Of a DNA stretch of 64,000 nt, positions 29,546 to 58,133 are shown in pieces (the first letter of the stretch is position 1; each line of letters opens with the position of its first letter). A program made the position numbers and the translations under genes. The notes below the pieces were generated by a model, which saw only the letters and a program-made list of their open reading frames with translations, did not search any database and was not told where the DNA came from. Origin of the DNA: Ornithinimicrobium faecis (lineage in GTDB: Bacteria > Actinomycetota > Actinomycetes > Actinomycetales > Dermatophilaceae); assembly GCF_023923225.1 (NCBI RefSeq), contig NZ_CP099489.1:3410001-3474000 (forward strand), given 5' to 3'.

Positions 29546-31516
29546 TCAGAGCGTCCGCTCGCTCCCACCGTCGACGGCCACCTGTGCGCCCGTGGTGCAC
29601 GCGAAGGTGTCATCCACCATGGCGCGCACCATCCGCGCGACGTCACGGCTCGTCACCTCTGCGCTCAGCAGGTTGCGCCTCTTGTAGTCCTCCACCGACA
29701 TCCCGTAGTGCTCGGCCCGGCTGGCCAACAGTTCCGGGGTCCACAGCCCGGTATCAAAGACGGCGTCGGGGTGCACCGTGTTGACGCGGATCCCGTCCGG
29801 CGCCCACTCCAACGCCGCCACCCGGCACAGTTGGGTCAGGGCGGCCTTGGAGGTGGAGTAGGCCGCTGCGCCCTTGCCGGGAGCCGGCACGTTCTTGGAG
29901 GACACGACGGCCACCCGCGCACCGGAGGGTGCGAGCGCCAGCAGCGGGTGCACCGCGCTGAAGAGGGCGGCGACAGAGTCGACGTTGACGGCCATCGTCT
30001 TGCGCCACTGGTCGGCCGTCAGGTCGGCGATGTCCTGGCTCTGCGGGAAGATGCCCGCCGAGATCACCACGATGTCCACGCCGCCGAAGCGCTCGACAGT
30101 CTGCGCCAGGGCGCGCTGCACCTGGTCGGGGTCGGTCACGTCGACGGTCAGCCCGAGCCAGGCCTGGTCGGTGAAGGCGTCTGCCGTGTCCGCTGCGAGG
30201 TCCCAGCCGGCGACCGCAGCACCGGCGGCCATGAGCTCCTGCGCGCAGGCCCGTCCGATCCCGGAGGCAGCGCCGGTGACGAGCGCCACCTGCCCCTCGA
30301 GCGGTTTGGGCTTGCCAGCGGCCTTGAGCTTCAGCTGCTCGAGCACCCAATACTCCAGGTCGAAGATGTCGCCCGCGGGCAGCGCGACATAACCGCCCTG
30401 CCCCTGCGCCAGCTCGATCGTGTCGAGGGTGTGCGAATAGATGTCCTCGGTGATCCCGGTCTCGCGGGCCGTGCGCCCGAGCGAGAGCATCCCGAGCTCG
30501 TCATCGAGCACCACGCGAGGAGCTGGGTCGAGCATGGTCAGCTCGAGACCACGCCGGTCCTTGTGCGCAGCGAAATAGTCCTCGTATGCCGCGGCGAACC
30601 CCGCCACGTCCCTGCCCATGAGTGGGGTGCGCTTGGTGTAGAGCACGTGGTCGGGCGTCATCGGTCCCTGCTGAGTCGTCTCCCGCAGCACCGGGTCGGT
30701 GAGGAAGGCGGAGACCTGGCCGTCGGTGCGCCGGCGCATCACCAGCGGTTTGCCGGCCACGCCGCTGATGGCGGCGCGCAGCTCCGCGAGCGCCAGCACC
30801 TGGTCCGCGGCCGACGTGGATGAGGATGTGGTGGCCGAGGCTTGGGCCTCGTGCTCGGGCACCTCGCCGAGCAGTGCGCGGGCCTCGGCGATCATCTGCT
30901 CGTGCCGGACCAGTGCCTCGCTCGGGGTGTCGCCCACGGCGAACAGCCCGTGGTTGAGCACCACGATGCCCTCGGTCCCCTCGTGGGCCTGCTCCTGCCA
31001 GGCGGCAAAGCAGGCCTCTCCCAGGTCGGGTCCGGGCATGACGTAGTCCACGATGACGACGCGATCGCCATAGAGCTCCTCGACCTTCGCCCTGCCACCC
31101 TCGGTGTTGGTGATGGCCAGGACCGCGTCGGCGTGGGAGTGCAGGACCGCGGCGTGCGGGACCAGCGCGTGCACGAGGGTCTCGACGGAGGGGTTCGGGG
31201 CCTTGGCGTCCAGGCTGGCGGCACGCAGTTCGTTGCCGAGCTCCAGGTCACCCATCTTCACCGGCGGCAGCAGCTGGCGGAGCCGCTCCAGGCGCAGCGG
31301 GGCAAAACCGACCCGCCCGATGGTGGCCAGGTCGTGGCCGCTGCCCTTGATGAACAGCACCTCGAGCTCGTCACCGGTGATGTCCTGCCAGGTCGCCTTG
31401 ACCGAGGTGTTGCCGCCACCGTGCAGCACGAGCGAGGGGTCTGCCCCCAGTGCCCGGGAGGCCTGCACCAGGTCGTCAAGCAACTCCAGCGCACGGGGAC
31501 TCAGCCGGTTTTCCAT
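29546..31516 (-). CDS. bifunctional class II aldolase / short-chain dehydrogenase
   Basis: A 656-residue fusion of the RhaD/RhaE type. Residues about 1-385 are a class II aldolase/adducin fold: LVLHGGGNTSVKATW, then the zinc histidines in AVLHSHADAVLAIT and VVLNHGLFAVGD. Residues about 400-656 are a Rossmann dehydrogenase: VALVTGAASGIGRACAQEL, active-site Ser/Tyr/Lys region VVSSKN..AAYSTSKAALTQ. The family cleaves a ketose-1-phosphate to DHAP plus an aldehyde, and the fused domain then oxidises or reduces that aldehyde. No rhamnose isomerase or kinase is nearby; MtnK- and MtnA-like genes are. The likely substrate is therefore 5-methylthioribulose-1-P or 5-deoxyribulose-1-P. The gene starts 39 nt from a GTTGTC palindrome and is divergent from the transketolase genes. 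Confidence 0.88.
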   Translation of the reverse strand: MENRLSPRALELLDDLVQASRALGADPSLVLHGGGNTSVKATWQDITGDELEVLFIKGSGHDLATIGRVGFAPLRLERLRQLLPPVKMGDLELGNELRAASLDAKAPNPSVETLVHALVPHAAVLHSHADAVLAITNTEGGRAKVEELYGDRVVIVDYVMPGPDLGEACFAAWQEQAHEGTEGIVVLNHGLFAVGDTPSEALVRHEQMIAEARALLGEVPEHEAQASATTSSSTSAADQVLALAELRAAISGVAGKPLVMRRRTDGQVSAFLTDPVLRETTQQGPMTPDHVLYTKRTPLMGRDVAGFAAAYEDYFAAHKDRRGLELTMLDPAPRVVLDDELGMLSLGRTARETGITEDIYSHTLDTIELAQGQGGYVALPAGDIFDLEYWVLEQLKLKAAGKPKPLEGQVALVTGAASGIGRACAQELMAAGAAVAGWDLAADTADAFTDQAWLGLTVDVTDPDQVQRALAQTVERFGGVDIVVISAGIFPQSQDIADLTADQWRKTMAVNVDSVAALFSAVHPLLALAPSGARVAVVSSKNVPAPGKGAAAYSTSKAALTQLCRVAALEWAPDGIRVNTVHPDAVFDTGLWTPELLASRAEHYGMSVEDYKRRNLLSAEVTSRDVARMVRAMVDDTFACTTGAQVAVDGGSERTL

Positions 31517-31554
31517 GGGACGCCTCTCTCACGCAACGTGTCTCACTCAAGCCA

Positions 31555-31567
31555 GTTGTCCGACAAC
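31555..31567. promoter_or_regulatory. GntR operator, site 1
   Basis: GTTGTC-C-GACAAC is a perfect 6-1-6 palindrome 39 bp upstream of the aldolase-dehydrogenase start. The same palindrome precedes mtnA at 37094. Confidence 0.65.
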
Positions 31568-31634
31568 CTAGCATCGACAATGCTGATGCGACCCCTTCCG
31601 CAGCACGGCGACCTCGTCGTAGGCTGCTTGGGAA

Positions 31635-31647
31635 GTTGTCAGACATC
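31635..31647. promoter_or_regulatory. GntR operator, site 2
   Basis: GTTGTC-A-GACATC differs from the palindrome at one position and lies 70 bp before the transketolase start, 80 bp (about 7.6 turns) from site 1. Confidence 0.55.
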
Positions 31648-31669
31648 TCGCGTCGGCAGCACGCGTCCG

Positions 31670-31703
31670 CCAGAGCCACACGTCAACCAGAGCCACACGT
31701 CAA
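31670..31703 (+). repeat. 17-bp perfect tandem repeat before the transketolase ribosome-binding site
   Basis: CCAGAGCCACACGTCAA occurs twice in direct succession (31670-31686 and 31687-31703). The second copy runs into AAGGAG, the ribosome-binding site of the gene at 31717. Confidence 0.8.
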
Positions 31704-31716
31704 GGAGTGAGCGCAG

Positions 31717-32625
31717 ATGGAGCCAGACCTCGATCGGATGGCCGAGATCGCCCAGGGCATCCGCCGCCGGGTGCTCGAGCACACGGTCAAGAACAACGGC
31801 GGCTACATGAGTCAGGCGTGCTCGGCCGCCGAACTGCTCGCCGCCTGCTATGGCGGGGCCATCCGCCTCGCGGAGGTCGAGGCCCCCTATGAGCCTCCAC
31901 CGTTCACGCAGGTCCCGGCACCCGGGCTCGACCCGATCTCCGGTGCCGTCGTGCACGGACCGGCCTCCCCCGGAGCCGATCGCTTCATCATCTCGCCGGC
32001 GCACTACGCCCTCGTGGTCTATGCCGCCCTCATCGAGACCGGTCGGCTGGCCGAGCACGCCCTGGAGCAGTTCAACGCCGATGGCAGCACCGTCGAGATG
32101 ATCGGCGCCGAGCACTCCCCCGGCTTCGAGACCACCACCGGCTCCCTGTCCCAGGCCCTGTCACAGGCGGGCGGCATCGCGCTGGCCCGCAAGCTCAAGG
32201 GTGACACCGGCCGCACCTGGGTCTTCCTGTCCGACGGCGAGTTCCAGGAGGGGCAGACCTGGGAGGCCGTGCAGGCCCTGGCCCACCACCACGTCAGCGG
32301 CGTGCGCGTGATCGTCGACGTCAACCAGGCCCAGTGCGACGGCCCGATGGAGGACGTCATGCGCATCGAGCCGGTCGCCGACCGGCTGCGGGCGTTCGGC
32401 GCGAGCGTGGACGTGGTCGACGGCCACGACCTGACCGCCCTGACCCAGGCCATGGATCGGGAGAGCGACAAGCCGCACTTCGTGCTCGCCTACACCGACC
32501 CCGCGCGCGGCCTGCCACTGCTGGAGGAGCGCCGCCCCGTCCTGCACTATCTGCGATTCACCAGCGAGGACGAGCGGGCGAAATATGCCGACGCCTATGC
32601 CGAGCTGGCCGGAAGGAGCCTGTGA
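31717..32625 (+). CDS. transketolase-like protein, N-terminal (TPP-binding) subunit
   Basis: A 302-residue subunit of a split transketolase. It binds the pyrophosphate end of thiamine diphosphate: histidines in FIISPAHYALVVY and EHSPGFETTTGSLSQ, and the TPP motif LSDGEFQEGQTWEAVQ with the metal-ligand Asn in VDVNQAQCDG. The N-terminus IRRRVLEHTVKNNGGYMSQA resembles split transketolases used in pentose and branched-sugar catabolism, for example apulose-4-P transketolase. AAGGAG precedes the ATG by 9 nt. The stop overlaps the next start (TGATG). It would act as a heterodimer with the next product; its donor sugar is not known. Confidence 0.88.
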   Translation: MEPDLDRMAEIAQGIRRRVLEHTVKNNGGYMSQACSAAELLAACYGGAIRLAEVEAPYEPPPFTQVPAPGLDPISGAVVHGPASPGADRFIISPAHYALVVYAALIETGRLAEHALEQFNADGSTVEMIGAEHSPGFETTTGSLSQALSQAGGIALARKLKGDTGRTWVFLSDGEFQEGQTWEAVQALAHHHVSGVRVIVDVNQAQCDGPMEDVMRIEPVADRLRAFGASVDVVDGHDLTALTQAMDRESDKPHFVLAYTDPARGLPLLEERRPVLHYLRFTSEDERAKYADAYAELAGRSL

Positions 32626-33692
32626 TGACCCAGCAGACACCCGTGACCGGAGACCAGCCCGCCCCCGGCGAGCTGGTCCGCCGCCCCCACCTGCAGAACT
32701 TCATCGACTGGAGCGCGGACAAGCCCGAGGTGCTCGTCCTCACCGCCGACCTCACCAACTCGTGCGAGGTCGGGCCGTGGCGCGACACCTATCCCGAGCG
32801 CTATTTCTCGATGGGCATGGCCGAGCAGAACATGATGGGCTTCGCCGCTGGCCTGGCCCGCGAGGGCTTCGAGCCGTGGCTGCACACCTTTGCGGTCTTC
32901 CTCTATCGCCGCCCGCTCGATCAGCTGCTGATGTCCGTGGCCTATCCCGCCCTGCCGGTCCGGCTCATCGGCTTCCTGCCCGGCGTGACCACCCCCGGCG
33001 GCGTCACGCACCAGGCGATCGACGACCTCGCGGTGCTGCGCTCGGTGCCCAACCTGACCATCCTGAGCACCGGCGACGCCACCGAGGTGGAGAGCGTCCT
33101 GGACGTCATCCACGAGCAGCCCGGCCCGGTCTATGTCCGGATGCTGCGCGGCGAGATGCCCCGGCTGTTCCCGCAGTCCGAGCCCTTCGCGCTCAGCCGC
33201 GCCCGGGAGCTGGGACCCGACCACTCGGCATACGGCAGTGATCATGTCCTGGTGCTCACCGAGGGGATCTGCACCGAGGAGGCCATGCGCGCGCTGCCGG
33301 CCGTGCGCGAGCGGGGCGTGGAGGTGCGCCACCTGCACATCTCGACGCTCAAGCCGTTCGACGACCCGGCCGTGCTCGATGCCCTGGCCGCTGCTGGCGG
33401 CGGGGTGATCACGATGGAGAACCACCTGCGCACGGGTGGGCTCGGGTCGGCCGTCGCCGAGGTGATGGCGGACGCGGGCATCGGCAACCGGCTGGTGCGG
33501 CTCGGGCTCGACGACACCTATGCCCACGGCGCGTCGCAGGGGCACCTGCTGGCGGAGTATGGCCTGGACGCTGCGGCCCTGGTGCGCGCGGTCGAGGGAC
33601 TGGTCGGTCAGGATCTGGCCATCACCTCCGAAGACCTGACCGAGCTGCGGGTCGCCGACGTGCACAGCTCGGCCAAGGCGGAGGCGCTGTGA
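32625..33692 (+). CDS. transketolase-like protein, C-terminal (Pyr) subunit
   Basis: A 355-residue partner of the preceding subunit. The pyrimidine-binding domain includes the essential glutamate in FSMGMAEQNMMGFAAGLARE, the aromatic cradle in LHTFAVFLYRRPLDQL, and the PGGVTHQAIDDLAVLR segment. The C-terminal domain begins near 225 (VLVLTEGICTEEAMRALPAV) and includes TMENHLRTGGLGSAVAEVM. Transketolases and DXS share this build; length is typical of split enzymes. It overlaps the upstream stop by 1 nt and the RuBisCO-like gene by 4 nt, so the three products are made together. Confidence 0.88.
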   Translation: MTQQTPVTGDQPAPGELVRRPHLQNFIDWSADKPEVLVLTADLTNSCEVGPWRDTYPERYFSMGMAEQNMMGFAAGLAREGFEPWLHTFAVFLYRRPLDQLLMSVAYPALPVRLIGFLPGVTTPGGVTHQAIDDLAVLRSVPNLTILSTGDATEVESVLDVIHEQPGPVYVRMLRGEMPRLFPQSEPFALSRARELGPDHSAYGSDHVLVLTEGICTEEAMRALPAVRERGVEVRHLHISTLKPFDDPAVLDALAAAGGGVITMENHLRTGGLGSAVAEVMADAGIGNRLVRLGLDDTYAHGASQGHLLAEYGLDAAALVRAVEGLVGQDLAITSEDLTELRVADVHSSAKAEAL

Positions 33693-34789
33693 GCGAGCTC
33701 GGGGCGGATCCCACGCGGCTCTATGTCCGCTATGCCGTCGCCGGCGACGTCGCGGCGGTCGCCGAGGCGATCCGGGTCGAGCAGACCATCGAGTTCCCCG
33801 CCGACCTGGCGCCCGAGTGGATCCAGCAGGAGGTGGTCGGCCGGGTCGAGAGCCAGGACGAGGACGGCGTGGTCATCTCGTTTGCTCCTGGTGTGTATGC
33901 CGGGGGGCTGGGTCAGGTGCTCAATGTCCTGTGGGGCAATGTGTCCCTCTTTGAGGGTGTGCGGGTGGTCCAGGTGCAGTTGCCCGCGGCGGAGCACCTG
34001 GGGTTGCGTGGGCCGCGGTTTGGCGGCGCAGGGATGCGGGAGCTGCTTGGCGCGCCCTCGCGCCCGCTGCTGGCGACGGCCCTGAAGCCGATGGGCTCGT
34101 CCTCCGACGAGCTCGCTGCCACTGCAGCTGTCCTCGCCGAGGCGGGCATCGACCTGATCAAGGACGACCACTCCCTGGGCGACCAGCCGTGGTCGACGTG
34201 GCGCGAGCGCGTGGCCCGGTGCACCGAGACCGTGCGCGAGGCCAACGAGCGCGCGGGCACGGCGGCGCGCTATCTGCCCTCGCTCAATGTGCCGGCTCAC
34301 GAGGTCTTCGAGCGGGCGCACGAGGCGAAGGAGTTGGGGGCCGGCGGGCTGCTGGTCCTGCCTGGCATCAGCGGCTTCGACACGATGCGGGCACTGGCCG
34401 ATGACGACGACCTGGGCTTGCCGATCATGAGCCACCCCTCGATGCTGGGCTCGCACGTGGTCAACCCTGCGCAGGGGCTGGACCACGGCATCCTGCTGGG
34501 CCTGGTCAACCGGCTGGCGGGAGCGGACATGGCGGTCTTCCCCAATGCCGGCGGACGCTTCGGCTTCTCGGTGGAGCAGTGCGCACAGATCCGGGACGAG
34601 TGTGCTGCCGAGCGAGCGGGACTGGCGTCAGCGCTGCCCACGCCCGGTGGCGGCATGACACTGGAGCGGGTGCCCGAGATCCTGGACCTGTTTGGCCAGG
34701 ACGTGGTGCTGCTGATTGGTGGCGCCTTGCACCGCGGTGACCTGCGGGCCAACGCGACCGCGTTGCGGGAGGCCGTCGAGACGCACTGA
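33689..34789 (+). CDS. RuBisCO-like protein (form IV)
   Basis: A 366-residue RuBisCO-like protein, shorter than true large subunits (about 450-475). It keeps the barrel motif ATALKPMG (first active-site Lys), and GIDLIKDDHSLGDQPW, where Lys158 aligns with the carbamylated lysine and Asp160 with the metal ligand. The expected Glu is His161, and the second Lys of KPK is Met, so carboxylation is not expected. SHPSMLGSH, FPNAGGRFGF and LIGGALHRG match the remaining phosphate-site loops. Known form IV enzymes tautomerise, isomerise or decarboxylate phosphosugars, including 5-methylthioribulose-1-P in Rhodospirillum. GTG start overlaps the transketolase stop. It probably acts on the MtnA product; this is inference. 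Confidence 0.88.
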   Translation: MSELGADPTRLYVRYAVAGDVAAVAEAIRVEQTIEFPADLAPEWIQQEVVGRVESQDEDGVVISFAPGVYAGGLGQVLNVLWGNVSLFEGVRVVQVQLPAAEHLGLRGPRFGGAGMRELLGAPSRPLLATALKPMGSSSDELAATAAVLAEAGIDLIKDDHSLGDQPWSTWRERVARCTETVREANERAGTAARYLPSLNVPAHEVFERAHEAKELGAGGLLVLPGISGFDTMRALADDDDLGLPIMSHPSMLGSHVVNPAQGLDHGILLGLVNRLAGADMAVFPNAGGRFGFSVEQCAQIRDECAAERAGLASALPTPGGGMTLERVPEILDLFGQDVVLLIGGALHRGDLRANATALREAVETH

Positions 34790-35035
34790 CGTCGCGGCGG
34801 TCGTCAGCAGTGGCTTCATCGGCCCTGCTTTCGCCCCATTTCACTAGCAGCACCCCGCACTTCTTTACCTTGTCTTTGCCTGATCTTGAGCCATGCTAAA
34901 GTCTCCAACCGTTGCAGATCGAGTCGCTAGGGCCATCACAACTAGTCCGCCAGACGCCACGCCTGCCACGAGCAAGAGACAGACGCAGCGCGAAATGTGT
35001 TGTGCCGCAAATAGATTTGGGACTCGAGGGTTAAG

Positions 35036-36178
35036 ATGAACAAAGTGACGGGGTCATTCGCGAGCGCGATGTGTGTGCTTGCCCTCACACTCAGCGGGTG
35101 CGGCGGATCCTCGCCGGAGGACGAAACTCCCGCTGAGGCCAATGCGGAGGCGGTCACACAGGAGCCCGCCTCGGAGAGCAGTAGTTCACCTCAGGCCAGC
35201 TCTGAGCCGTCCGCTCCAGTGGCCGAGCCCGCTAGCGATACTTCGTCGAGCGACGACGAAGCTGCTGACGGAGACTCATCCTTCGCGGATGGGGTTCTGA
35301 CGACACCAGACCTGAAGATCGTGATCACTGAACACAAAGTGATCCCGGCGGGTGAACCAGGCAATGAGTACAGCGACAAACCGGTCCTCGCGTTCTGGTA
35401 CGAGACCACCAACCTGACCGACGAAGACGTCAGTCCGATGGACTTCATCTTCTACTTCGAGGCGTACCAAGACAACAACCCCAACGCGGAAAACCGGTTG
35501 GAGGTGTCCAGTCTCCCGGATGACAAGTTCCGGGAGACCCAGATGGAGAACATCAAGAAGGACGGCACTGTCGAGAACGCCATGGCCTATGAACTCGACG
35601 ACGAGACGACCCCCGTCGACCTCGTCGCATCAGACTTCATGACCGAGTTCGGCAAGACCACTTACAACCTGGATGGCTCGGTCTCGGACGCCGCTCCAGA
35701 GGACGCGAGCGAGCCCACCCCCGCCGTAGAGGAGGACTCCGAGAGTGATGCCGGCGGCGAGTCCGCTGCGGGCGAGCCCACGTTCGAAGACGGAGTGCTC
35801 ACAACCTCGGACCTGAAGATCGTGATCACTGACCACAAGGTGATCCCCGCAGGTGACCAAGGCAACGAGTACGGCGACAAGCCTGTCATCGCGTTCTGGT
35901 ACGAGACCACCAACCTGAGCGACGAAGACGTCAGCCCGATGGACTTCCTTTGGCACATTGAGGCCTACCAGGACAATAACCCGAACGCCGAGAACACCCT
36001 AGAGGTCGCCGGACTCCCTGACGACCAGTTCCTAGACACGCAGACGGAGACCATCAAGAAGGGTGGCACCGTCGCGAACGCGATGGCTTACGAACTCGAC
36101 GACGAGACAACCCCTGTTGACCTCGTAGCATCAGACTTCATGACCGAGTTCGGCAAGACCACCTACGACCTCGAGTAG
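35036..36178 (+). CDS. lipoprotein with two tandem DUF5067 domains
   Basis: A 380-residue lipoprotein: signal peptide with lipobox LSGC (Cys22), a Ser/Glu/Pro-rich linker to about 78, then two domains. Each contains DGVLTT-DLKIVIT-HKVIPAG, FWYETTNL-DEDVSPMDF, AYQDNNPNAEN and AMAYELDDETTPVDLVASDF, at about residues 84-215 and 255-380. The copies are nearly identical, including long stretches of DNA, so duplication is recent. DUF5067 is an extracellular immunoglobulin-like domain of unknown role. Base composition is lower in GC than the flanks, and the gene interrupts the sugar-catabolic island, suggesting insertion. GAGGG precedes the ATG. Confidence 0.85.
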   Translation: MNKVTGSFASAMCVLALTLSGCGGSSPEDETPAEANAEAVTQEPASESSSSPQASSEPSAPVAEPASDTSSSDDEAADGDSSFADGVLTTPDLKIVITEHKVIPAGEPGNEYSDKPVLAFWYETTNLTDEDVSPMDFIFYFEAYQDNNPNAENRLEVSSLPDDKFRETQMENIKKDGTVENAMAYELDDETTPVDLVASDFMTEFGKTTYNLDGSVSDAAPEDASEPTPAVEEDSESDAGGESAAGEPTFEDGVLTTSDLKIVITDHKVIPAGDQGNEYGDKPVIAFWYETTNLSDEDVSPMDFLWHIEAYQDNNPNAENTLEVAGLPDDQFLDTQTETIKKGGTVANAMAYELDDETTPVDLVASDFMTEFGKTTYDLE

Positions 36179-36212
36179 GGCCGGTCGGAGCCGGTCCAAT
36201 TCTCCCACTGGC

Positions 36213-36227
36213 ACCTCCTGGGGAGGT
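36213..36227. terminator. weak hairpin between the lipoprotein and gntR
   Basis: ACCTCC, loop TGG and GGAGGT form a 6-bp stem between convergent stops at 36178 and 36249. It is short, so the call is tentative. Confidence 0.35.
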
Positions 36228-36248
36228 CCGCATCTTCCTAAGAATGGG

Positions 36249-36965
36249 TCAGACGGTGCGGACCAGGGAGAAGGAGTAACGCCCCTCGATGAAGTAGGTG
36301 CGCGAGTAGAGGATCAACTCCCCCGTCGCGTCGTGGTGCAGCTGGTTGAGCAGCAGGAACAGCTTGTGGGTGGCCGCCTCGCTGCCCCATCCGACGTGGT
36401 TGGACTCGACGGCGTGCACCTCGGCGAAAGCGGTCACCGGCACGCGGTTCAGGCGGGTCTTCATGAACTCGAACAGTGAGCCCGTGAGCTCCTCCGGGTC
36501 GAAGTCCTTGGGCAGCAGGCTGGCCGGCATCAGGTCGTAGGAGTAGGCCATCACCTCGCCGTCGGCCAGGACGGTGCGCCGGATCTCCAGCACCTGCGTG
36601 TCACCGGACACCTCCATGCGCGCGGCCTCCTCCGGAAGCACCGCGCGCAGGATGCGGCTGGCATAGACCATGTCGGGCACGTGGCCGTCCGCGCGGATGG
36701 ACTCCGTGATCGAGTCGAGGCGCTCCAGGCCAGTGCGGACGGCAGGTTGTTCGACAACAAAGGTGCCAACCCCGTGAGATGTCTTGACAAGTCCGAGCGC
36801 TTCAAGCTCCCTGAGCGCGGCCCGGACAGTCGGTCGGGAGACGCCAAACTGTGACCCGAGCTCGGCCTCTGGAGGCAGCTTGGCTCCTGCGGGGTATTGG
36901 TCCGCTGCCAGTGCGCTGCGCAGGTCCTCCGCCACGCGGGAAACGAGCGTGCCGCTGCGGGCCAT
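36249..36965 (-). CDS. GntR-family (HutC subfamily) repressor
   Basis: A 238-residue repressor. The N-terminal winged helix is LPPEAELGSQFGVSRPTVRA, ALRELEALGLVKTSHGVGTFV (residues about 28-75). The UTRA effector domain follows (IRRTVLADGEVMAYSYDLMP, ending RTYFIEGRYSFSLVR). HutC-type regulators bind short palindromes and are released by a pathway metabolite, often a phosphosugar. The ATG at 36965 has GGGAGG 7 nt upstream. It is divergent from mtnA. The palindrome GTTGTC-N-GACAAC at mtnA and at the aldolase/transketolase promoters is the likely target. A related sequence lies inside this gene at 36746-36758. Confidence 0.9.
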   Translation of the reverse strand: MARSGTLVSRVAEDLRSALAADQYPAGAKLPPEAELGSQFGVSRPTVRAALRELEALGLVKTSHGVGTFVVEQPAVRTGLERLDSITESIRADGHVPDMVYASRILRAVLPEEAARMEVSGDTQVLEIRRTVLADGEVMAYSYDLMPASLLPKDFDPEELTGSLFEFMKTRLNRVPVTAFAEVHAVESNHVGWGSEAATHKLFLLLNQLHHDATGELILYSRTYFIEGRYSFSLVRTV

Positions 36966-37055
36966 GCATCCTCCCAGTGCATCGTGCGCCCGGCGGTCCC
37001 GGGCGGTTGCCGAAGACACTGTACGCGCAACGCTTCACGAAGTCGTCCCCATCTA

Positions 37056-37084
37056 TTGACAACCTGTTTGCCTCCGCTTACGTT
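37056..37084 (+). promoter_or_regulatory. mtnA promoter
   Basis: TTGACA (37056-37061) and TACGTT (37079-37084) are spaced 17 nt, a good match to the housekeeping consensus. The GTTGTC palindrome begins 10 nt downstream, covering the expected transcription start. Confidence 0.55.
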
Positions 37085-37093
37085 TGCTCAACA

Positions 37094-37106
37094 GTTGTCA
37101 GACAAC
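37094..37106. promoter_or_regulatory. GntR operator, site 3 (mtnA operon)
   Basis: GTTGTC-A-GACAAC is a perfect palindrome just downstream of the -10 box, where a bound repressor would block transcription. It is the same element as at 31555 and 31635. Confidence 0.7.
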
Positions 37107-37125
37107 GTCGTTGCGGAGGAAACAC

Positions 37126-38163
37126 ATGGTGCTGGCCGTCGAGTGGGTCGAGACCCCCGAGCCGATGATTCGGTTGCTCGATCAGACCGCGCTGCCTGCG
37201 CAGGAGACCTACCTCGACATCACCACGGTGGATGCCCTCGTCGACGCCATCCAGACGCTCGCTGTGCGCGGGGCACCCGCCCTCGGAGCCGCTGGCGCGC
37301 TCGGCGTCGTCGTGGCGATGCACCAGGGCGCTCGGGACGGCTGGGACGACTCCCGCCTGCAGTCCGAGATCGATCGGATCCGTCTGGCTCGTCCCACGGC
37401 AGTGAACCTGGCCTGGGGCGTTGACCAGGTCCGCGGCGGGATGACACAGGGTGTCGATCAGGTGCTGACGCTGGCCCGCGGTGTCGTGACCGACGACGAG
37501 GCCGCCAACCGGCAGCAGGCCCGTCTGGGCGCCGACTGGATCCTGGAGCGCACCGGGCTGGAGCGCGTGCGGGTGGTGACCCACTGCAACACCGGCGCGC
37601 TGGCGACGACCGCCTGGGGAACGGCATACGGGATCATCCACGAGCTGCACGACCGCGACCGTCTCGGCCTGGTCTATGCCGACGAGACCCGTCCCCTGCT
37701 GCAGGGGTCCCGACTGACCAGCTGGGAGCTCACGCAGGACGGCATCGAGCACGTTGTCCAGGTCGACGGGGCCGCTCCCAGCACGATCCTGCGGGGCCTG
37801 GTCGACGTCGCCATCATCGGCGCCGACCGGATCACCGCCAACGGCGACACCGCCAACAAGGTCGGCTCGGTCTCCCTGGCGCTGGCCTGCGCCCGCGCCG
37901 GGATCCCCTTCATCGTGGCCGCCCCGTCCTCGACCGTCGACCTGGCCACCGCGACCGGTGACGAGATCGTCATCGAGCAGCGCGACCCGGAGGAGGTCGT
38001 CAACTTCGGCGGCCGCCGCACCGCCCCCGAGGGTGCCGTCGGCTTCAACCCGGCCTTCGACGTCACACCCCACGACCTGATCAGCGCCGTCGTCACCGAG
38101 CGCGGCGTGGTCGAACCAGCCAACACACCCCACCCCAACCTGCTCGCGAGGATCGCGGGCTGA
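37126..38163 (+). CDS. mtnA: MtnA-like 5-methylthioribose-1-phosphate isomerase
   Basis: A 345-residue isomerase converting an aldose-1-phosphate to the ketose-1-phosphate in methionine salvage. Family motifs are VRGAPALGAAGALGVVVAMH, the catalytic cysteine in VVTHCNTGALAT (Cys154) and the catalytic aspartate in IIGADRITANGDTANKVGS (Asp234). Length matches MtnA (about 340-360) rather than eIF2B. The ATG at 37126 is preceded by GGAGGA; the longer frame starts inside the operator. It is the first gene of an operon with an ABC importer and MtnK. The substrate may be 5-methylthioribose-1-P or 5-deoxyribose-1-P. Confidence 0.92.
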   Translation: MVLAVEWVETPEPMIRLLDQTALPAQETYLDITTVDALVDAIQTLAVRGAPALGAAGALGVVVAMHQGARDGWDDSRLQSEIDRIRLARPTAVNLAWGVDQVRGGMTQGVDQVLTLARGVVTDDEAANRQQARLGADWILERTGLERVRVVTHCNTGALATTAWGTAYGIIHELHDRDRLGLVYADETRPLLQGSRLTSWELTQDGIEHVVQVDGAAPSTILRGLVDVAIIGADRITANGDTANKVGSVSLALACARAGIPFIVAAPSSTVDLATATGDEIVIEQRDPEEVVNFGGRRTAPEGAVGFNPAFDVTPHDLISAVVTERGVVEPANTPHPNLLARIAG

Positions 38164-38199
38164 GCAGATCGCAGCCACCGCTGCAAGGAGAGGAAGATC

Positions 38200-39345
38200 A
38201 TGAGGAACAGCAAGGTTCTTCTGGCAGGACTGCTTGGCGCATCCGTCTTCGCGATGTCCGCGTGCAGTCAGGGCGACGCCGAGGGCGACGAGCCCACCGA
38301 GGAGGGCACCACCGCGGAGGCCGCTGACAGCACGGCAGGCGGCGCCACCGACGAGGCGGAGGTCACCGAGGCTGCCGCCGAGGCACCCGCACCGTTCGAC
38401 GGCGACGGCGTCAACATCGCCATCGTCCAGCAGAGCGGCCAGGGCGACTACTTCCAGCAATACCTCAACGGCACCCGCCAGCAGGTCGAGGCGCTGGGCG
38501 GTGAACTGGCCGTCTTCGACGCCCAGGGCGACAACGCCACGCAGGCCTCGCAGCTCGACCAGGCGATCGCCAGCTCGCCCGATGGCATCATCGTGCGGCA
38601 CGGCTTCCCGGACACCCTGTGCCCGGGGGTCAACAAGGCGATCGAGGCCGGCATCCCGGTCATCATCTATGACGTCGAGATCCAGGAGTGCGCACCCGAC
38701 GCCATCCAGACCCAGCAGTCCGACATCGAGATGGCCTCACTCGTCCTTGACCAGATGGTCGAGGACGTCGGCAGCGACGTCAACGTCGGCTATGTCAACG
38801 TCGCCGGCATCGCCCCGCTGGACCGCCGCGACGGGGTGTGGCAGGAATACAAGGCCGACAACAACTGGACCGAGCTGTTCAAGACCGGCACCTACACCAA
38901 CTCCAGCGCCACCGACACCGCCCCGATGGTCAGCAACGCCCTGAAGGCCAACCCGGACGTCGCGGCGATCTACGCGCCCTATGACGAGCTGACCAAGGGC
39001 ACCCTGTCGGCCCTGGAGCAGAACCCGGACCTGACCGATGTCCTCGTCTATGGCGCGGACATCTCCACGGCCGACATCGAGCTGATGAAGGCTGAGGGCA
39101 GCCCGTGGGTGGCGACCGGCGCGACTGACCCCAACGCCATCGGCGCCACGGTCACCCGCACCCTGGCGCTGCACATGGCCGGTGAGCTCGAGGAGACCAA
39201 GGTGGAGTTCCCGCCGATCCTGATCACCGCAGACTTCCTGCGCGAGAACGACGTCAACAACATGGAGGACCTGCGGGCGGCCGAGCCGGCCCTCAACATC
39301 TCCGACGTCTCCTCCGCCGACTGGATCCCGACCGTCACCTTCTGA
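38200..39345 (+). CDS. ABC transporter substrate-binding lipoprotein (RbsB-like)
   Basis: A 381-residue exported lipoprotein with lipobox MSAC (Cys22), an acidic Ala/Glu-rich linker to about 65, and a type I periplasmic-binding fold (VNIAIVQQSGQGDYFQQYLN, QLDQAIASSPDGIIVRHGFP, VYGADISTADIELMKAEGSP). It lies 36 nt after mtnA and has GGAGAGGAAG upstream. Because kinase and isomerase for a 5-substituted ribose flank the transporter, the ligand is likely 5-methylthioribose or 5-deoxyribose; the family as a whole binds pentoses and AI-2. A GC hairpin follows the stop. Confidence 0.9.
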   Translation: MRNSKVLLAGLLGASVFAMSACSQGDAEGDEPTEEGTTAEAADSTAGGATDEAEVTEAAAEAPAPFDGDGVNIAIVQQSGQGDYFQQYLNGTRQQVEALGGELAVFDAQGDNATQASQLDQAIASSPDGIIVRHGFPDTLCPGVNKAIEAGIPVIIYDVEIQECAPDAIQTQQSDIEMASLVLDQMVEDVGSDVNVGYVNVAGIAPLDRRDGVWQEYKADNNWTELFKTGTYTNSSATDTAPMVSNALKANPDVAAIYAPYDELTKGTLSALEQNPDLTDVLVYGADISTADIELMKAEGSPWVATGATDPNAIGATVTRTLALHMAGELEETKVEFPPILITADFLRENDVNNMEDLRAAEPALNISDVSSADWIPTVTF

Positions 39346-39357
39346 TCCACAGCATGG

Positions 39358-39390
39358 GGGCGGCGGCCGGCCACAGACCGGCTGCCGCCC
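39358..39390 (+). terminator. intra-operon hairpin after the binding-protein gene
   Basis: GGGCGGCGGCCGG and CCGGCTGCCGCCC pair over 13 bp with one G-T, around a 7-nt loop, between the binding-protein stop and the ATPase start. It probably lowers downstream expression or protects the upstream message, a common arrangement for binding proteins. Confidence 0.55.
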
Positions 39391-39433
39391 ACCCGTGCAG
39401 GCAACCACACGGCATACGAGCAGGGAGGACCAC

Positions 39434-40975
39434 GTGCAGGACGAACCCAGGACGGACCCGACCGGGTCCGGTGACGTGGCCCTGCGCCTGACCGACATCA
39501 CCAAGGACTTCGGCCCCAACCGGGTCCTCAAGGGCGTCACGATGGACCTGCGGGCCGGGCGGGTCACCGCGCTGCTCGGTGCCAATGGCGCCGGCAAGTC
39601 CACGCTCATCAAGATCCTCAGTGGCATCTATGAGAAGCAGGACGGATCGGTCCAGGTCGCCGGTGCGGACGTCGACATCACCACGCCGATGACGGCCGCC
39701 CAGCACGGCATCCAGACGGTGCACCAGCGCATCGACGACAGCATCATCCCGGACCTGACCGTCGCCGAGAACCTGGTCTTTGAGGAGTTGGTGCGCGGCG
39801 CACTGCCGCGCGTGCGCAGCCTGAAGGCCCTGCTCCCCCGCGCCCGCGAGATCGCCTCGAGCCTGGACCTGGGCTGGTCGGACACCTTCCTGCTCAAGGA
39901 CGCCTTCGAGATCAGCATCGCCGACGGCCAACTGCTCCTGCTGGCCCGTGCGCTCAACCAGCGCCCCAAGGTGTTGATCCTCGACGAGCCGACGTCCACG
40001 CTGTCCGCAGCAGAGGCCGATCGACTGTTCACGCTGGTGCGCAGGCTGCGCGACGACGGCGTGGCGATCATGTATGTCACGCACCGGCTCAGTGAGGTCC
40101 GCGCCCTCGCCGACGACCTGGTCGTCCTGCGCGACGGCCGCCTCCAGCAGGAGCAGACCACCCCCTTTGACATGCCGGCGGCGGTCGAGGCGATGCTCGG
40201 CAAGGCGATCCAGGTCGAGGCCGACTCGCTGACCGAGCACCGGGGCGAGCAGGTCGCCCTGCAGCTGCGCGGCCTGCAACTGCTCCCCCGCTCGGCGCCG
40301 CTCGACCTGGATCTGCGCTATGGCGAGGTCACTGGTGTCATCGGGCTCATCGGGGCGGGCAAGACCGAGCTGGCCCAGGCCATCTTTGGCGTGGACCGCC
40401 TGCGCGCCGGGACGATGCAGCTGGACGGGACCGACTTTGCGCCGCGCTCCACCGGTGCCGCGGTGCGCCGCGGGATCTATCTGGCCCCCGAGGACCGGGC
40501 CGCCCAGGCGATGCTGCCGGGCTGGACCCTGGCGACCACCGGCAGCCTGCCGTTCCTGTCCTCCATCAGCCCAGGGTCGGTGATCAACCGTCGCGCCGAG
40601 CGCAAGATGGCAGCCGACATCATCAACTCCTATGGCGTCGTGGCCACCGGACCCGACCAGGAGATGGATGCCCTCTCCGGCGGCAACCAGCAGAAGGTGG
40701 TCGTCGCTCGCTGGTTGCGCCAGTCGCCACGGATCATGCTCCTGGACGAGCCCTTCCGCGGAGTCGACCTCGGCGCCCGGCGAGAGATCGCCGGCAAGGC
40801 GCGCGAGCAGGCCGCCAACGGTGCCTGCATCGTGGTCCTGGTCAGCGACGTCGAGGAGCTGCGCGAGGTCGCCGACCGGGTGGTCGTCCTCGCCGAGGGC
40901 CAGATCTACCTCGACGCCCATGCGTCCGAGATCGACAACAGCACCATCATCGCGAGCATGTCGGAGGTTGCTTGA
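39434..40975 (+). CDS. ABC transporter ATP-binding protein with two NBDs (RbsA-like)
   Basis: A 513-residue double ATPase. Domain 1 has Walker A GANGAGKST, a signature region ISIADGQLLLLARAL and Walker B VLILDEPTST. Domain 2 has the degenerate P-loop GLIGAGKTELA, signature LSGGNQQKVVVAR and Walker B IMLLDEPFRG. This is the standard RbsA/MglA pattern, unlike the single-domain ATPases of the two other importers in the window. GTG at 39434 is preceded by AGGGAGGA; an earlier GTG at 39395 lies next to the hairpin. The permease starts 3 nt after the stop. Confidence 0.92.
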   Translation: MQDEPRTDPTGSGDVALRLTDITKDFGPNRVLKGVTMDLRAGRVTALLGANGAGKSTLIKILSGIYEKQDGSVQVAGADVDITTPMTAAQHGIQTVHQRIDDSIIPDLTVAENLVFEELVRGALPRVRSLKALLPRAREIASSLDLGWSDTFLLKDAFEISIADGQLLLLARALNQRPKVLILDEPTSTLSAAEADRLFTLVRRLRDDGVAIMYVTHRLSEVRALADDLVVLRDGRLQQEQTTPFDMPAAVEAMLGKAIQVEADSLTEHRGEQVALQLRGLQLLPRSAPLDLDLRYGEVTGVIGLIGAGKTELAQAIFGVDRLRAGTMQLDGTDFAPRSTGAAVRRGIYLAPEDRAAQAMLPGWTLATTGSLPFLSSISPGSVINRRAERKMAADIINSYGVVATGPDQEMDALSGGNQQKVVVARWLRQSPRIMLLDEPFRGVDLGARREIAGKAREQAANGACIVVLVSDVEELREVADRVVVLAEGQIYLDAHASEIDNSTIIASMSEVA

Positions 40976-40978
40976 CCC

Positions 40979-42007
40979 ATGGCTGGAACCACTGTGGACA
41001 CCACTGCCCTGGATCGGGCCCGTGACGTGATCGTTAAATACGGCTTCATCGCCGTCACGATCCTGCTCTTCATCTATTTCGCGCTGACCGAGCCGGCCTT
41101 CGCCACGTCCTCCTCGATCTTCTCGATGCTCAAGTTCGTCTCCGTGACGGCCATCCTGGGTCTCGGGATCATGTTCACGATGGTGGTCGGCGGGCTGGAC
41201 CTCTCGATCGGCTCGGTGGCCGGGCTGGCCGTGCAGATGGCCGCCATGACGATGGTCTTCTACAACATGACCGGCTTCACCGCCGTGGGCGTGGTGATGC
41301 TGGCCGGCGTGCTCGTCGGCCTGATCAACGCCTTCCTCATCGTCGTCTGCAAGATCCCCGACCTGCTGGCCACCCTCGGCATGATGTTCGTCATCCAGGG
41401 CGCCAAGCTCATCCCGGTCTCTGGCCAGTCGGTCACCAGCGGCATGGTGACCCGGGACGGGTCAGAGGCCCCGGGCCGCTTCACCGAGGGGTTCCTGCAG
41501 ATCGACCGTGGCTTCGTCGGCCCGATCCCCCTGCCCGTCGTCATCATGCTGCTGCTGGTGATCGCCTCCTGGTTCTTCCTGAGCCGGACCACGTGGGGAC
41601 GGGTCATGTATGCCATCGGCGCGAACCCCGAGGCCGCCCGGCTGGCGGGTGTGCGGGTGGGCTTCTATCGCGGCCTGGCCTATGTCATCTCCGCGATGCT
41701 GGCCTCCGTCGGCGGCCTGATCCTGGTCTCGCGCATCGGCCAGGGCGACGTCAACGCTGGCGCGTCCAGCCTGCTCGAGGCAGTCGCCGTGGCCCTGGTC
41801 GGCCGCTCGGTCCTGGGCGCTGGCAAGCCCAACGCCTGGGGCACCCTGCTCGGCGCCGTCCTGATCGCGATCGTGCTGACCGGCCTGACCATGAAGGGCT
41901 TCCAGTACTACCACCAGGACACCGCCAAGGGCGCCGTTCTGATCCTCGCGCTGATCTTCTCCTACACCCTGTCCCGCAAGAAGATCCGTTATGTCTCAGC
42001 AACCTGA
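40979..42007 (+). CDS. ABC transporter permease (RbsC-like)
   Basis: A 342-residue membrane protein with about ten hydrophobic segments. The signature VVGGLDLSIGSVAGLAVQMA lies near residue 60 and the ATPase-contact loop YAIGANPEAARLAGVRVGFY near residue 210. The first membrane segment (FIAVTILLFIYFALTEPAF) begins at about residue 20. It completes the importer with the two preceding genes and is followed 59 nt later by mtnK. Confidence 0.92.
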   Translation: MAGTTVDTTALDRARDVIVKYGFIAVTILLFIYFALTEPAFATSSSIFSMLKFVSVTAILGLGIMFTMVVGGLDLSIGSVAGLAVQMAAMTMVFYNMTGFTAVGVVMLAGVLVGLINAFLIVVCKIPDLLATLGMMFVIQGAKLIPVSGQSVTSGMVTRDGSEAPGRFTEGFLQIDRGFVGPIPLPVVIMLLLVIASWFFLSRTTWGRVMYAIGANPEAARLAGVRVGFYRGLAYVISAMLASVGGLILVSRIGQGDVNAGASSLLEAVAVALVGRSVLGAGKPNAWGTLLGAVLIAIVLTGLTMKGFQYYHQDTAKGAVLILALIFSYTLSRKKIRYVSAT

Positions 42008-42066
42008 CCCCACGCACGCAGCCTCCACCCACGGGGCGTCCACGCACGAAAGAAGAGTTCACGCAC

Positions 42067-43299
42067 ATGGCGCACGACTATGAGTTCCTGACGGTCGACA
42101 CGGTCGCGGACTACATCCGCACGGTGCCCACCCTGGCGGACCTGATCGACCCGGACGACCTGGTGTCCGTGGACGAGATCGGTGACGGCAACCTCAACCT
42201 GGTCTTCGTCGCCAAGGACTCCGCTGGCCGGGGTCTGTGCCTGAAGCAGTCGCTGCCCTATGTGCGCATGACTGGCCCGGACTGGCCGATGACGCCGGAG
42301 CGCTCCCGCCTCGAGGCTGACTCGCTGCGCATCCACGCTCCGTTGGCCCCCGGTCTGGTCAGCGAGGTCCTCCACTACAACCACGACCGGTTCATCATCG
42401 CGCTGGAGGACCTGAGCGACCACACCGTGTGGCGCGCCGCCCTCAACGAGGGACTTGTCCATGATGGCGCGGCGGCGGCAGCTGGCCGTTATGTCGCGGG
42501 CGTGGCCCTGGGCACCTCGGTCCTCGGGCTGGAGCGCGAGGAGCTGGCTGAGCGCCTGGCTGCCTCGGTCAACCCGCAGCTGTGTCAGATCACCGAGGAC
42601 CTGGTCTTCACCGAGCCGTCGGTCGATGCCGGCCGCAACAGCACCATCGAGGCCAACGCCCAGGACGCCGTCGAGCTGTCGGTCGACGCCGAGTTTGTGG
42701 CCGCGATGGGCCGGGCCAAGTGGTTGTTCATGACCAAGGCCGAGGCGCTGATCCACGGTGATCTGCACACCGGATCGATCATGGTGCGCAGCCCGGAGGG
42801 CAACACCGAGTGCGACAGCATCAAGGTCTTTGACTCCGAGTTCGCCTTCTATGGCCCGGTCGCCTTCGACCTGGGGGCGCTCTGGGCGAACTACACCATC
42901 GCCGCCGCCCGCGCCTTTGCCCTCGGCGAGGACGACCGCGCGCAGTGGGCCCTCGCGCTGGTCACGCAGACCTGGGATGCCTTCGAGGAGGAGTTCCGCC
43001 GTCGCTGGCCGGACCGGCTGGACCAGCGGGTCTGGGGCGATCCGTTCCTCGAGGAGTTGCTGGCCACGTGGCAGCAGGAGGCCTGGCTGTTCGCGGCGGC
43101 CAAGATGTCCCGCCGGATCGTCGGAGCAGCGAAGACGACGGACATCGAGACCCTGCCGGAGAACCTGCGCGAGGGCGCTGCCCGCGGCGTGCTGCAGACC
43201 GCACGCCGGGCAGTCCGTGAGGCTGCCGCCGACAGCTCGCCCAAGGCGTTCACAGCCCTGGCGAGCGAGATCCTGGTGAGCACCCGCACGGCCACCTGA
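42067..43299 (+). CDS. mtnK: MtnK-like 5-methylthioribose kinase
   Basis: A 410-residue kinase of the APH-like fold that phosphorylates the anomeric carbon of 5-methylthioribose. Diagnostic motifs are GDGNLNLVFVAKD in the nucleotide loop, LCLKQSLPYVRMTGPDWPMT, the catalytic loop LIHGDLHTGSIMV and the metal-binding FDSEFAFYGPVAFDLG. These texts are closer to MtnK than to other aminoglycoside-kinase-like proteins, and length is as expected (about 400). The product is the substrate for the MtnA-like enzyme in the same operon. ATG at 42067 is the start of homology; the frame extends back to 41593 but reads through the permease. Substrate could also be 5-deoxyribose. Confidence 0.93.
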   Translation: MAHDYEFLTVDTVADYIRTVPTLADLIDPDDLVSVDEIGDGNLNLVFVAKDSAGRGLCLKQSLPYVRMTGPDWPMTPERSRLEADSLRIHAPLAPGLVSEVLHYNHDRFIIALEDLSDHTVWRAALNEGLVHDGAAAAAGRYVAGVALGTSVLGLEREELAERLAASVNPQLCQITEDLVFTEPSVDAGRNSTIEANAQDAVELSVDAEFVAAMGRAKWLFMTKAEALIHGDLHTGSIMVRSPEGNTECDSIKVFDSEFAFYGPVAFDLGALWANYTIAAARAFALGEDDRAQWALALVTQTWDAFEEEFRRRWPDRLDQRVWGDPFLEELLATWQQEAWLFAAAKMSRRIVGAAKTTDIETLPENLREGAARGVLQTARRAVREAAADSSPKAFTALASEILVSTRTAT

Positions 43300-45780: not shown

Positions 45781-45891
45781 GCTGACTCCTCTGTCACGCT
45801 GTCGGGTCCAACAGGCTGTCGTGTCCATCATGGGGCCGTCCCGTCGTTGAGGCGACCCAGCGTTGGATCGACCCAGCGTGGAGGCGCCGCC

Positions 45892-46800
45892 TCAGGCGGA
45901 CTGTTCGACTCCGAAGGTCGCGGGCACCTGCGCCCCGGGATAGCGCGTGCTCGTGGATGCCAGGGCCACCGCACGGCGCACCGCGCCCGCCAGGTCACTG
46001 GCGTCTCGGGCGAGCTCGTGGGCGAGCACACCACAGAAGGCGTCGCCGGCACCGCTGGTGTCGGCCGCCTCGATCGTTGGCGCGGGCACCTGCTCGACGA
46101 CCTGGCCGCCGGGCTCGATGATGACGGCTCCGTCGCGCCCGAGCGTCACCACGAGCGAGCCGGCGAAGTCCAGGGCGGCCGCGCACTCGCTGACCTCGGC
46201 CAGGGTGGTCGGCGTGGGCCGTCCCGCCAGCTGTCCGAGCTCGGCCCGGTTGGGCACGAGCACATCGACGTGCGCCAGCAGCTCCGCGAGCTCCGTGGCC
46301 GCACGGGCCGGGGCCGGGTTGAGCACCAACCGCGACGGGCCAGCCTCCGCAGCGGCCAGCAGGCCCTCGATCGGCACCTCCAGCTGGGCTAGGACGATCT
46401 CCTGCGAGCAGTCGCCGATGGCCTCGCCGACCCAGGCCGCATCAACGTGGTCGTTGGCGGCCGGGTCGACGATGATCAGGTTCTCCCCGTCGGCAGCGAC
46501 CACCACGATGGCCGTGCCGGTCGGGGTCTCCTCGAGCTGGCGCACCCCCGTGGTGTCGATGCCGCGCTCGGTCAGGGCGCCGAGCCCGGTGCCGGCGTTG
46601 TCGTCCGAGCCCACGGCGCCGATGAAGCGCACCTGGCTGCCCAGGGTGGCGGCCGCAACCGCCTGGTTCGCGCCCTTGCCGCCTGGGGAGGACGACCGGC
46701 CGGTGGCGAGGATCGTCTCGCCGTGGCCGGGCAGGACGGGCACGCGATAGGTCGTGTCGACATTGATCGAGCCGACGACACAGACCCGGCCCGTGGTCAC
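45892..46800 (-). CDS. rbsK: ribokinase
   Basis: A 302-residue PfkB-family kinase that phosphorylates ribose to ribose-5-phosphate. Key parts are VVGSINVDTTYRVPVLPGHG, GGKGANQAVAAATLG near residue 40, and the anion-hole/base motif DTSGAGDAFCGVLAHEL near 250. Length matches ribokinase (about 300). GTG at 46800 overlaps the nucleoside-hydrolase stop by 4 nt. In this operon it would use the ribose released by the hydrolase. Confidence 0.9.
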   Translation of the reverse strand: MTTGRVCVVGSINVDTTYRVPVLPGHGETILATGRSSSPGGKGANQAVAAATLGSQVRFIGAVGSDDNAGTGLGALTERGIDTTGVRQLEETPTGTAIVVVAADGENLIIVDPAANDHVDAAWVGEAIGDCSQEIVLAQLEVPIEGLLAAAEAGPSRLVLNPAPARAATELAELLAHVDVLVPNRAELGQLAGRPTPTTLAEVSECAAALDFAGSLVVTLGRDGAVIIEPGGQVVEQVPAPTIEAADTSGAGDAFCGVLAHELARDASDLAGAVRRAVALASTSTRYPGAQVPATFGVEQSA

Positions 46801-58132: not shown

Positions 58133-58133
58133 C

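Follow-up and report, generated by a model that had tools for sequence, protein, structure and literature searches.

A RuBisCO-like protein linked to an altered split transketolase in a predicted methylthioribose/5-deoxyribose island of Ornithinimicrobium faecis

Gene content of the island

The island described here occupies positions 29,546 to 43,299 of a 64,000-nucleotide stretch of DNA (the window) from the one-contig, 4.62 Mb genome of Ornithinimicrobium faecis. Its 11 genes encode a kinase (MtnK) and an isomerase (MtnA) of the 5-methylthioribose (MTR) families; a CUT2-type importer (38200-42007, plus strand); an aldolase/short-chain dehydrogenase fusion (AldSDR); the two subunits of a split transketolase (TK); a RuBisCO-like protein (RLP); a GntR regulator; and a protein with two DUF5067 stretches (Table 1). 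Family matches across this interval confirm the genes that a first-pass annotation, made from the sequence alone, had placed there. Our analysis points to the RLP and TK as an undescribed branch of S-adenosylmethionine-sugar salvage; in the open-access literature, which our search covered, no title or abstract was found that describes an RLP with a TK in such a setting.

MTR and 5-deoxyribose are by-products of S-adenosylmethionine. MtnK and MtnA both exceed the NCBIfam cut-offs, MtnK matches methylthioribose kinases in the PDB, and the importer binding protein is closest to 4ry8, a solved MTR binder. These matches support a substrate of the methylthioribose or 5-deoxyribose type, as the first-pass annotation had predicted. 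The absence of MtnB, MtnC and MtnD, which it had also claimed, holds for MtnD (no PF03079 match in the O. faecis genome, the same search being positive in 5 of 14 control genomes) and for MtnB (nothing over the TIGR03328 cut-off in this genome, with a best match of 49.9 of 137 bits); MtnC was not searched. The island shares MtnK and MtnA with canonical methionine salvage, but, on the genes covered here, was rejected as an instance of it because MtnD and an over-cut-off MtnB were not found and because the RLP, with 190 bits against an MtnW cut-off of 409 and 148.5 against one of 513.6, scores much too low. The AldSDR protein contains an Aldolase_II domain, but within a short-chain dehydrogenase fusion of unassigned substrate; in one of the related loci described below (L069), the Aldolase_II gene and the dehydrogenase (407.6 bits to the C-terminal half of NF006196) are separate neighbours that precede TK and RLP. 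Elsewhere the genome encodes its own DXS and its own TK, both over cut-off, as well as MetY (647 bits, cut-off 495) and three over-cut-off matches to the PNP_UDP_1 (nucleoside phosphorylase/nucleosidase) family.

The two TK genes overlap by one base if the C-subunit starts at ATG 32625, and the start of the RLP gene overlaps the C-subunit stop by 4 bases. The true mtnA start is probably ATG 37126 and the listed start at 37084 too early, because a predicted operator and a GGAGGA motif precede ATG 37126 (start placed by eye). The DUF5067 protein between rlp and gntR, which also occurs in Ornithinimicrobium cavernae (71%), is probably a passenger with no evident link to the pathway.

Table 1. Genes and predicted operators of the island, in window coordinates
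Feature	Position	Strand	Basis
AldSDR, aldolase/short-chain dehydrogenase fusion	29546..31516	-	NF006196, 907 bits, cut-off 831; PF00596 + PF13561
GTTGTCCGACAAC, predicted operator upstream of AldSDR	31555..31567		site search
GTTGTCAGACATC, predicted operator (1 mismatch) upstream of the TK-RLP unit	31635..31647		site search
Split TK, N-terminal (thiamine diphosphate-binding) subunit, RLP-linked type	31717..32625	+	PF00456; nearest PDB chain 6yak
Split TK, C-terminal (pyrimidine-binding) subunit, RLP-linked type	32625..33692	+	PF02779 + PF02780; nearest 6yaj
RLP, 366 aa, predicted 5-X-ribulose-1-phosphate 1,3-isomerase	33689..34789	+	nearest PDB 3qfw
Protein with two DUF5067 stretches	35036..36178	+	PF16729, 2 stretches
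GntR/UTRA regulator, predicted binder of GTTGTCNGACAAC sites	36249..37019	-	PF00392 + PF07702
GTTGTCAGACAAC, predicted operator between gntR and mtnA	37094..37106		site search
MtnA, 5-methylthioribose-1-phosphate isomerase	37126..38163	+	TIGR00512, 377.9 bits, cut-off 279
Importer sugar-binding protein, predicted methylthioribose/deoxyribose binder	38200..39345	+	nearest 4ry8
Importer ATPase	39395..40975	+	matches listed are to sugar ABC ATPase families, all below the family cut-off
Importer permease	40979..42007	+	PF02653
MtnK, 5-methylthioribose kinase	42067..43299	+	TIGR01767, 339 bits, cut-off 275; PDB 2pyw, 2olc

No tRNA genes were found in the window by ARAGORN. A few kb from the island lie nucleoside hydrolase-like and ribokinase-like genes (45892-48089), both below the equivalog cut-offs. 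An amidase of the hydantoinase/carbamoylase family (44530-45831; over the TIGR01879 cut-off, 431 of 520 bits to ErtE) and a gene with weak likeness to S-methyl thiohydantoin desulfurase (57663-59231; 127 of 450) are both within 15 kb of it.

The RuBisCO-like protein and its gene neighbourhoods

The PDB entry nearest to the island RLP is 3qfw (2.5e-58), followed by the MtnW entry 4nas (7.1e-41) and the RLP 2 entry 2qyg (4.4e-18). The 3qfw sequence is identical over the aligned stretch to P0121 of Rhodopseudomonas palustris and, because 2qyg is the one named RLP 2, we infer an RLP1 type for 3qfw. The island RLP is 38% identical to R. palustris P0163 over 347 positions, and proteins of the island and R. 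palustris types have a KDDH motif in common where the MtnW stretches have KDDE. A FastTree phylogeny built from 94 proteins, for which the second O. faecis RLP served as the root, groups the RLPs of the scanned loci, including that of the window, in one clade (support 0.989) and the R. palustris-type proteins in another (1.0); these clades meet at a node with a support of 0.846, with MtnW outside. To OiaX, the RLP scores only 65.7 of 700 bits. Judged by sequence, the type that isomerises 5-methylthioribulose-1-phosphate is therefore nearest to the island RLP, rather than MtnW, RLP2 or OiaX, in agreement with the activity that the first-pass annotation had named for such proteins in Rhodospirillum. 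According to PMC5893883, R. palustris RLP1 and the Rhodospirillum rubrum enzyme yield 1-methylthioxylulose-5-phosphate and 1-methylthioribulose-5-phosphate in a 3:1 ratio; the same paper names the RLP1-type group DeepYkr, to which the window RLP is not formally assigned.

The second RLP of the genome is OiaX-like (300 of 700 bits) and lies with an OiaK-like kinase (176 of 700) at L003:13207-15740 (genome 3487207-3489740), about 44 kb from the island, with importer genes recognised there by eye. This locus is presumably of an acid-sugar type, although neither the RLP nor the kinase reaches the cut-off of the enzyme it resembles. As an OiaX apionate system the island itself was rejected, given the low OiaX score of its RLP and the separate location of the OiaX-like genes. 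A further RLP, in genome G162 (L135:9364-10368), is 44% identical to that of the island, falls outside the TK-type clade and has no other pathway-gene match in 19 kb.

A pattern scan with one genome per species returned at least 574 confirmed RLP relatives, of which the best 80 were examined, all 80 of them; many come from metagenome-assembled genomes, in which binning can err. The closest named relative among those listed is the RLP of O. cavernae (88%), and the hosts, judged by record title, include Actinomycetota, Chloroflexi, Alicyclobacillus, Bacillota, one Gammaproteobacterium and one Pirellulaceae bacterium. The TK C-subunit occurs in 59 of the 80 loci, always 18-555 bp from the RLP (BLAST ends). 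Where at least 2.5 kb upstream of the RLP could be inspected, the C-subunit stands beside it in 50/61 loci and the N-subunit in 49/61. Among the 29 loci that are well flanked (5 kb or more on each side), the TK C-subunit was found in 26, the N-subunit in 25, MtnA in 24, AldSDR (either half) in 18, MtnK and the binding protein in 13 each, the ATPase and the permease in 10 each and GntR in 6; 25 of these loci have at least one of MtnA and MtnK nearby. The complete genome of an Alicyclobacillus sp. (L061) carries an uninterrupted MtnK-MtnA-TK-TK-RLP run. Thus, the co-occurrence check that had been proposed for these genes shows a linkage that exceeds chance and extends far beyond O. faecis. Of the 26 well-flanked loci with a TK, 10 show no AldSDR match (L009, L022, L058, L061, L063, L068, L079, L080, L081 and L084; in L022 the flank may end before AldSDR, and L058 carries a gene resembling LsrF). 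The RLP-TK unit can probably stand without AldSDR, since 7 of these 10 loci keep MtnA or MtnK.

A sample of 296 genomes of the phylum, searched at E thresholds of 1e-60 for the RLP and 1e-35 for the TK C-subunit, contained the RLP in 3 genomes, the third of which is G162, and some C-subunit match in 137, these being partly whole-length TK or DXS by open frame. Only two of the matches listed are of the RLP-linked type (100% and 65%), both beside an RLP, and the next are at most 40% identical.

Several of the scanned loci carry additional genes. PNP_UDP_1-family and deaminase genes lie beside TK-RLP at L008:5389-7502, and the same clusters recur in L009 and L043; only the L008 copies were identified, the deaminase being nearest, below cut-offs, to 5'-deoxyadenosine/methylthioadenosine (MTA)/S-adenosylhomocysteine deaminases. 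LsrF-like thiolase/aldolase genes are found near TK-RLP at L006:1-891 and L069:5049-5900 (454 and 343 bits, cut-off 297), and the same open reading frame cluster is present in L007, L033, L058, L066 and L074, the bit scores coming from the two tested copies only. An acetyl-CoA-forming variant is possible in these loci, because oxidised 5-deoxyribulose-1-phosphate or 1-deoxyxylulose-5-phosphate (DXP) would be an LsrF substrate. The Planktophila-type loci (L021, L024, L025, L026, L036, L037 and L040), which form one nested clade, keep MtnA-AldSDR-RLP and have no TK pair beside the RLP. In the complete chromosome of Planktophila lacus (L036) the best other C-subunit match (33% identity) belongs to an ordinary split TK encoded at a distance from the RLP, and the RLP product of this group may have another destination, such as isoprenoids.

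The first-pass annotation had placed the genes of the island under shared operators. Sites resembling GTTGTCNGACAAC lie at 31555, 31635 (1 mismatch) and 37094 and, inside gntR, at 36746 (1 mismatch), so that three of the four sit in two divergent intergenic promoter regions. By raw count, the window is only mildly above chance, with 6 sites at up to 2 mismatches against a shuffle mean of 2.39 (5 of 100 shuffles reach 6). The O. cavernae locus (L005) has the same four sites, and single sites with 1 mismatch (GTTGTCCTACAAC or its reverse complement) occur near mtnA or gntR in L010, L016, L017, L019, L023 and L027 and near the TK start in L008. Over all 80 loci (1.03 Mb), 14 sites with up to 1 mismatch were found where mononucleotide shuffles predict 3.0; for three of the 14, in L059, L068 and L082, no promoter-type placement was established. 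A GntR relative is present in 12/80 loci. The occupation of both divergent regions and the recurrence in O. cavernae and seven other loci bear out the idea of shared operators, and a GntR repressor acting on GTTGTCNGACAAC sites would tie the units of the island into an inducible regulon.

Substituted residues in the split transketolase

The N- and C-subunits are nearest to 6yak and 6yaj, respectively, which make up the split TK of Carboxydothermus hydrogenoformans. Residues were counted on the 6yak/6yaj columns in 54 N- and 58 C-subunits linked to an RLP (window included) and in controls from 34 loci, 22 with an N-subunit, some of which are DXS or whole TKs; residue numbers are those of yeast TK, which we take to correspond to these columns as placed by alignment. 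The island-type TK resembles the ordinary split TK in its domain families and subunit split and in the catalytic Glu418, which is conserved together with His481, Arg528 and Phe442 in 58/58 RLP-linked proteins each (34, 32, 30 and 26 of 34 controls); His69 is kept in 51/54 (22/22 controls). It departs from the ordinary enzyme at four positions, where the usual residue was never found: His30 is replaced by Tyr (54/54; His in 19/22 controls), His103 by Met (49), Leu (4) or Gln (1) (His in 0/54 against 19/22 controls), Asp477 by Gly (58/58; Asp in 26/34 controls) and His469 by Leu (58/58; His in 22/34 controls).

His103 binds the C1-hydroxyl of the donor in transketolase. In yeast TK, according to PMC5851014, His469 holds the substrate phosphate, His69 and His481 contact the enamine, and Asp477 contacts the 2-hydroxyl of the acceptor, while D477A also weakens donor binding. 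When H102 of the Geobacillus TK was changed to G, L or T and H474 to S or N, the enzyme gained the conversion of aliphatic ketoacids (PMC7696235, which has complementation of DXP synthase in its title); pyruvate is an example of the aliphatic donors that a TK accepts after substitution at the His103 position. By numbering offset, H102 would be yeast His103. In principle, an enzyme that forms DXP from a 1-deoxy unit and glyceraldehyde-3-phosphate should be capable of the reverse cleavage as well. The RLP-linked family lacks residues that ordinary TKs use on the donor and the acceptor side, and this strengthens, at the level of sequence, the earlier proposal that a transketolase acts after the RLP.

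A predicted two-branch pathway and its alternatives

On balance we consider it probable, if narrowly so, that the island serves the uptake and breakdown of MTR and/or 5-deoxyribose, with an RLP-TK branch running parallel to the aldolase. The strong family matches suggest that, after import, MtnK would form the sugar-1-phosphate and MtnA the 5-X-ribulose-1-phosphate, where X is SCH3 or H. In one branch, AldSDR would split this product into dihydroxyacetone phosphate (DHAP) and an aldehyde, which its dehydrogenase half would oxidise or reduce. In the other, the RLP would shift the carbonyl, as in Rhodospirillum and R. palustris, to give 1-X-xylulose-5-phosphate (1-methylthioxylulose-5-phosphate or DXP), and the split TK, with a pocket that lacks the histidine for the donor C1-hydroxyl, would break the C2-C3 bond, releasing glyceraldehyde-3-phosphate and keeping X-CH2-C(OH)= on thiamine diphosphate. 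The two-carbon unit could then be transferred to an aldehyde, be protonated or lose methanethiol to leave an acetyl group; for X = H, the options seem to narrow to transfer or protonation. The two branches had been put forward in the first-pass annotation; the substrate type, the RLP type and the linkage of RLP-TK to MtnA or MtnK speak for them, as do the separate DXS and TK of the genome, its MetY as a user of methanethiol, and the nucleosidase- and deaminase-type genes that accompany the unit in L008, L009 and L043, and the reactions themselves remain predictions.

The loss of methanethiol would be chemically natural, because X = SCH3 provides a beta-leaving group, and it has chemical precedents in sulfoacetaldehyde acetyltransferase, phosphoketolase and the turnover of fluoropyruvate. 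A speculative and rather unlikely extension is that the split TK acts on 1-methylthioxylulose-5-phosphate in the manner of a phosphoketolase and eliminates the thiol. In such an enzyme, the methylthio-enamine on thiamine would expel methanethiol, and the resulting acetyl-thiamine would give acetate, acetyl-phosphate or acetyl-CoA, so that MTR would be converted to glyceraldehyde-3-phosphate, an acetyl unit and methanethiol (for MetY) without oxygen.

Among known systems, the MTA-isoprenoid shunt of R. rubrum and R. palustris resembles the island in that the MtnA step leads to an RLP, there a member of the group closest to the island protein. The shunt, however, starts from MtnP and leads to DXP through a cupin methylsulfurylase, whereas the island starts with MtnK and an importer and has a split TK; there is no cupin among the 11 island genes, the rest of the genome not having been searched for one. 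The DHAP shunt and 5-deoxyribose disposal (mtnK-mtnA-ald2 and drdK-drdI-drdA) have an MTR-type kinase and isomerase in common with the island, which differs by its aldolase-dehydrogenase fusion and by the addition of the RLP and TK.

Several observations weigh against the two-branch pathway. The function of the RLP would be carried over at 38% identity, and the RLP occurs without TK in 11/61 loci (the seven Planktophila-type loci and L042, L073, L075 and L077); TK is therefore not indispensable to it. MtnK is present in only 13 of the well-flanked loci, neither MtnA nor MtnK in 4/29 (L009, L073, L079 and L084), and a 13-kb contig of genome G108 has TK-TK-RLP with no match to MtnA, MtnK or AldSDR. 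In the TK, the His103 column adjoins a one-residue gap, and hhalign of the two families places the Ile of EMIGA there instead of Met, so the exact residue is uncertain, though it is not His. The Arg359 column has Arg in 4/58 RLP-linked proteins against 27/34 controls, perhaps through a one-column alignment shift, and is left undecided because a conserved Arg lies one column on. The H474 that was changed alongside H102 by engineering corresponds to His481, which the family of the window retains. Finally, the aldolase could already finish the pathway, and a second branch needs a purpose.

It is conceivable, though unlikely, that the island is a DHAP shunt only, in which MtnK, MtnA and AldSDR suffice and TK-RLP is a sugar-phosphate module for another substrate under a common regulator. 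For both sugars mtnK-mtnA-ald2 and drdK-drdI-drdA are described as complete pathways in PMC10986504 and PMC6079011, AldSDR is matched in 18/29 well-flanked loci, and the TK-free loci fit this explanation as well. Against it stand the AldSDR-free TK loci, most of which retain MtnA or MtnK, the uninterrupted run in Alicyclobacillus and the operator-like sites upstream of both units. It is quite unlikely that the TK instead works in synthesis, joining a unit from DXP or 1-methylthioxylulose-5-phosphate to an aldose phosphate to give a 1-deoxy or methylthio ketose. The same residue changes would suit such a reaction, and in cyanobacteria a transketolase reportedly makes a deoxy-sugar from 5-deoxyribose. 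An importer and an aldolase in the same apparent regulon, however, suggest breakdown, and the acceptor contacts known from yeast TK, Asp477 and His469 (PMC5851014), are lost in all 58 proteins, although both residues also matter for the donor there.

The breakdown of apionate, apulose or another acid sugar, with the RLP as a decarboxylase or hydrolase and the TK acting on apulose-type phosphates, was named as the main alternative in the first-pass annotation, on the ground that split TKs and RLPs are known from such pathways. We regard it as very improbable: the island kinase and isomerase are of MTR families, the binding protein resembles an MTR binder, and the apionate part in particular is weakened by the distance of the RLP from OiaX and by the separate OiaX/OiaK-like locus. 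A literature search combining 'RuBisCO-like protein' and 'apionate' returned no papers.

If the two-branch pathway is correct, RuBisCO-like isomerases have a second, so far unrecognised outlet, which leads to central carbon via a redesigned transketolase and not to isoprenoids via a cupin. The TK would then be a natural case of the active-site change that engineers made by hand for DXS-like activity, and the thiol-eliminating case, if true, would provide a further route of methionine-sulfur salvage built on an RLP. The pathway would also suggest how actinobacteria, Chloroflexi and other carriers handle the waste sugars of S-adenosylmethionine.

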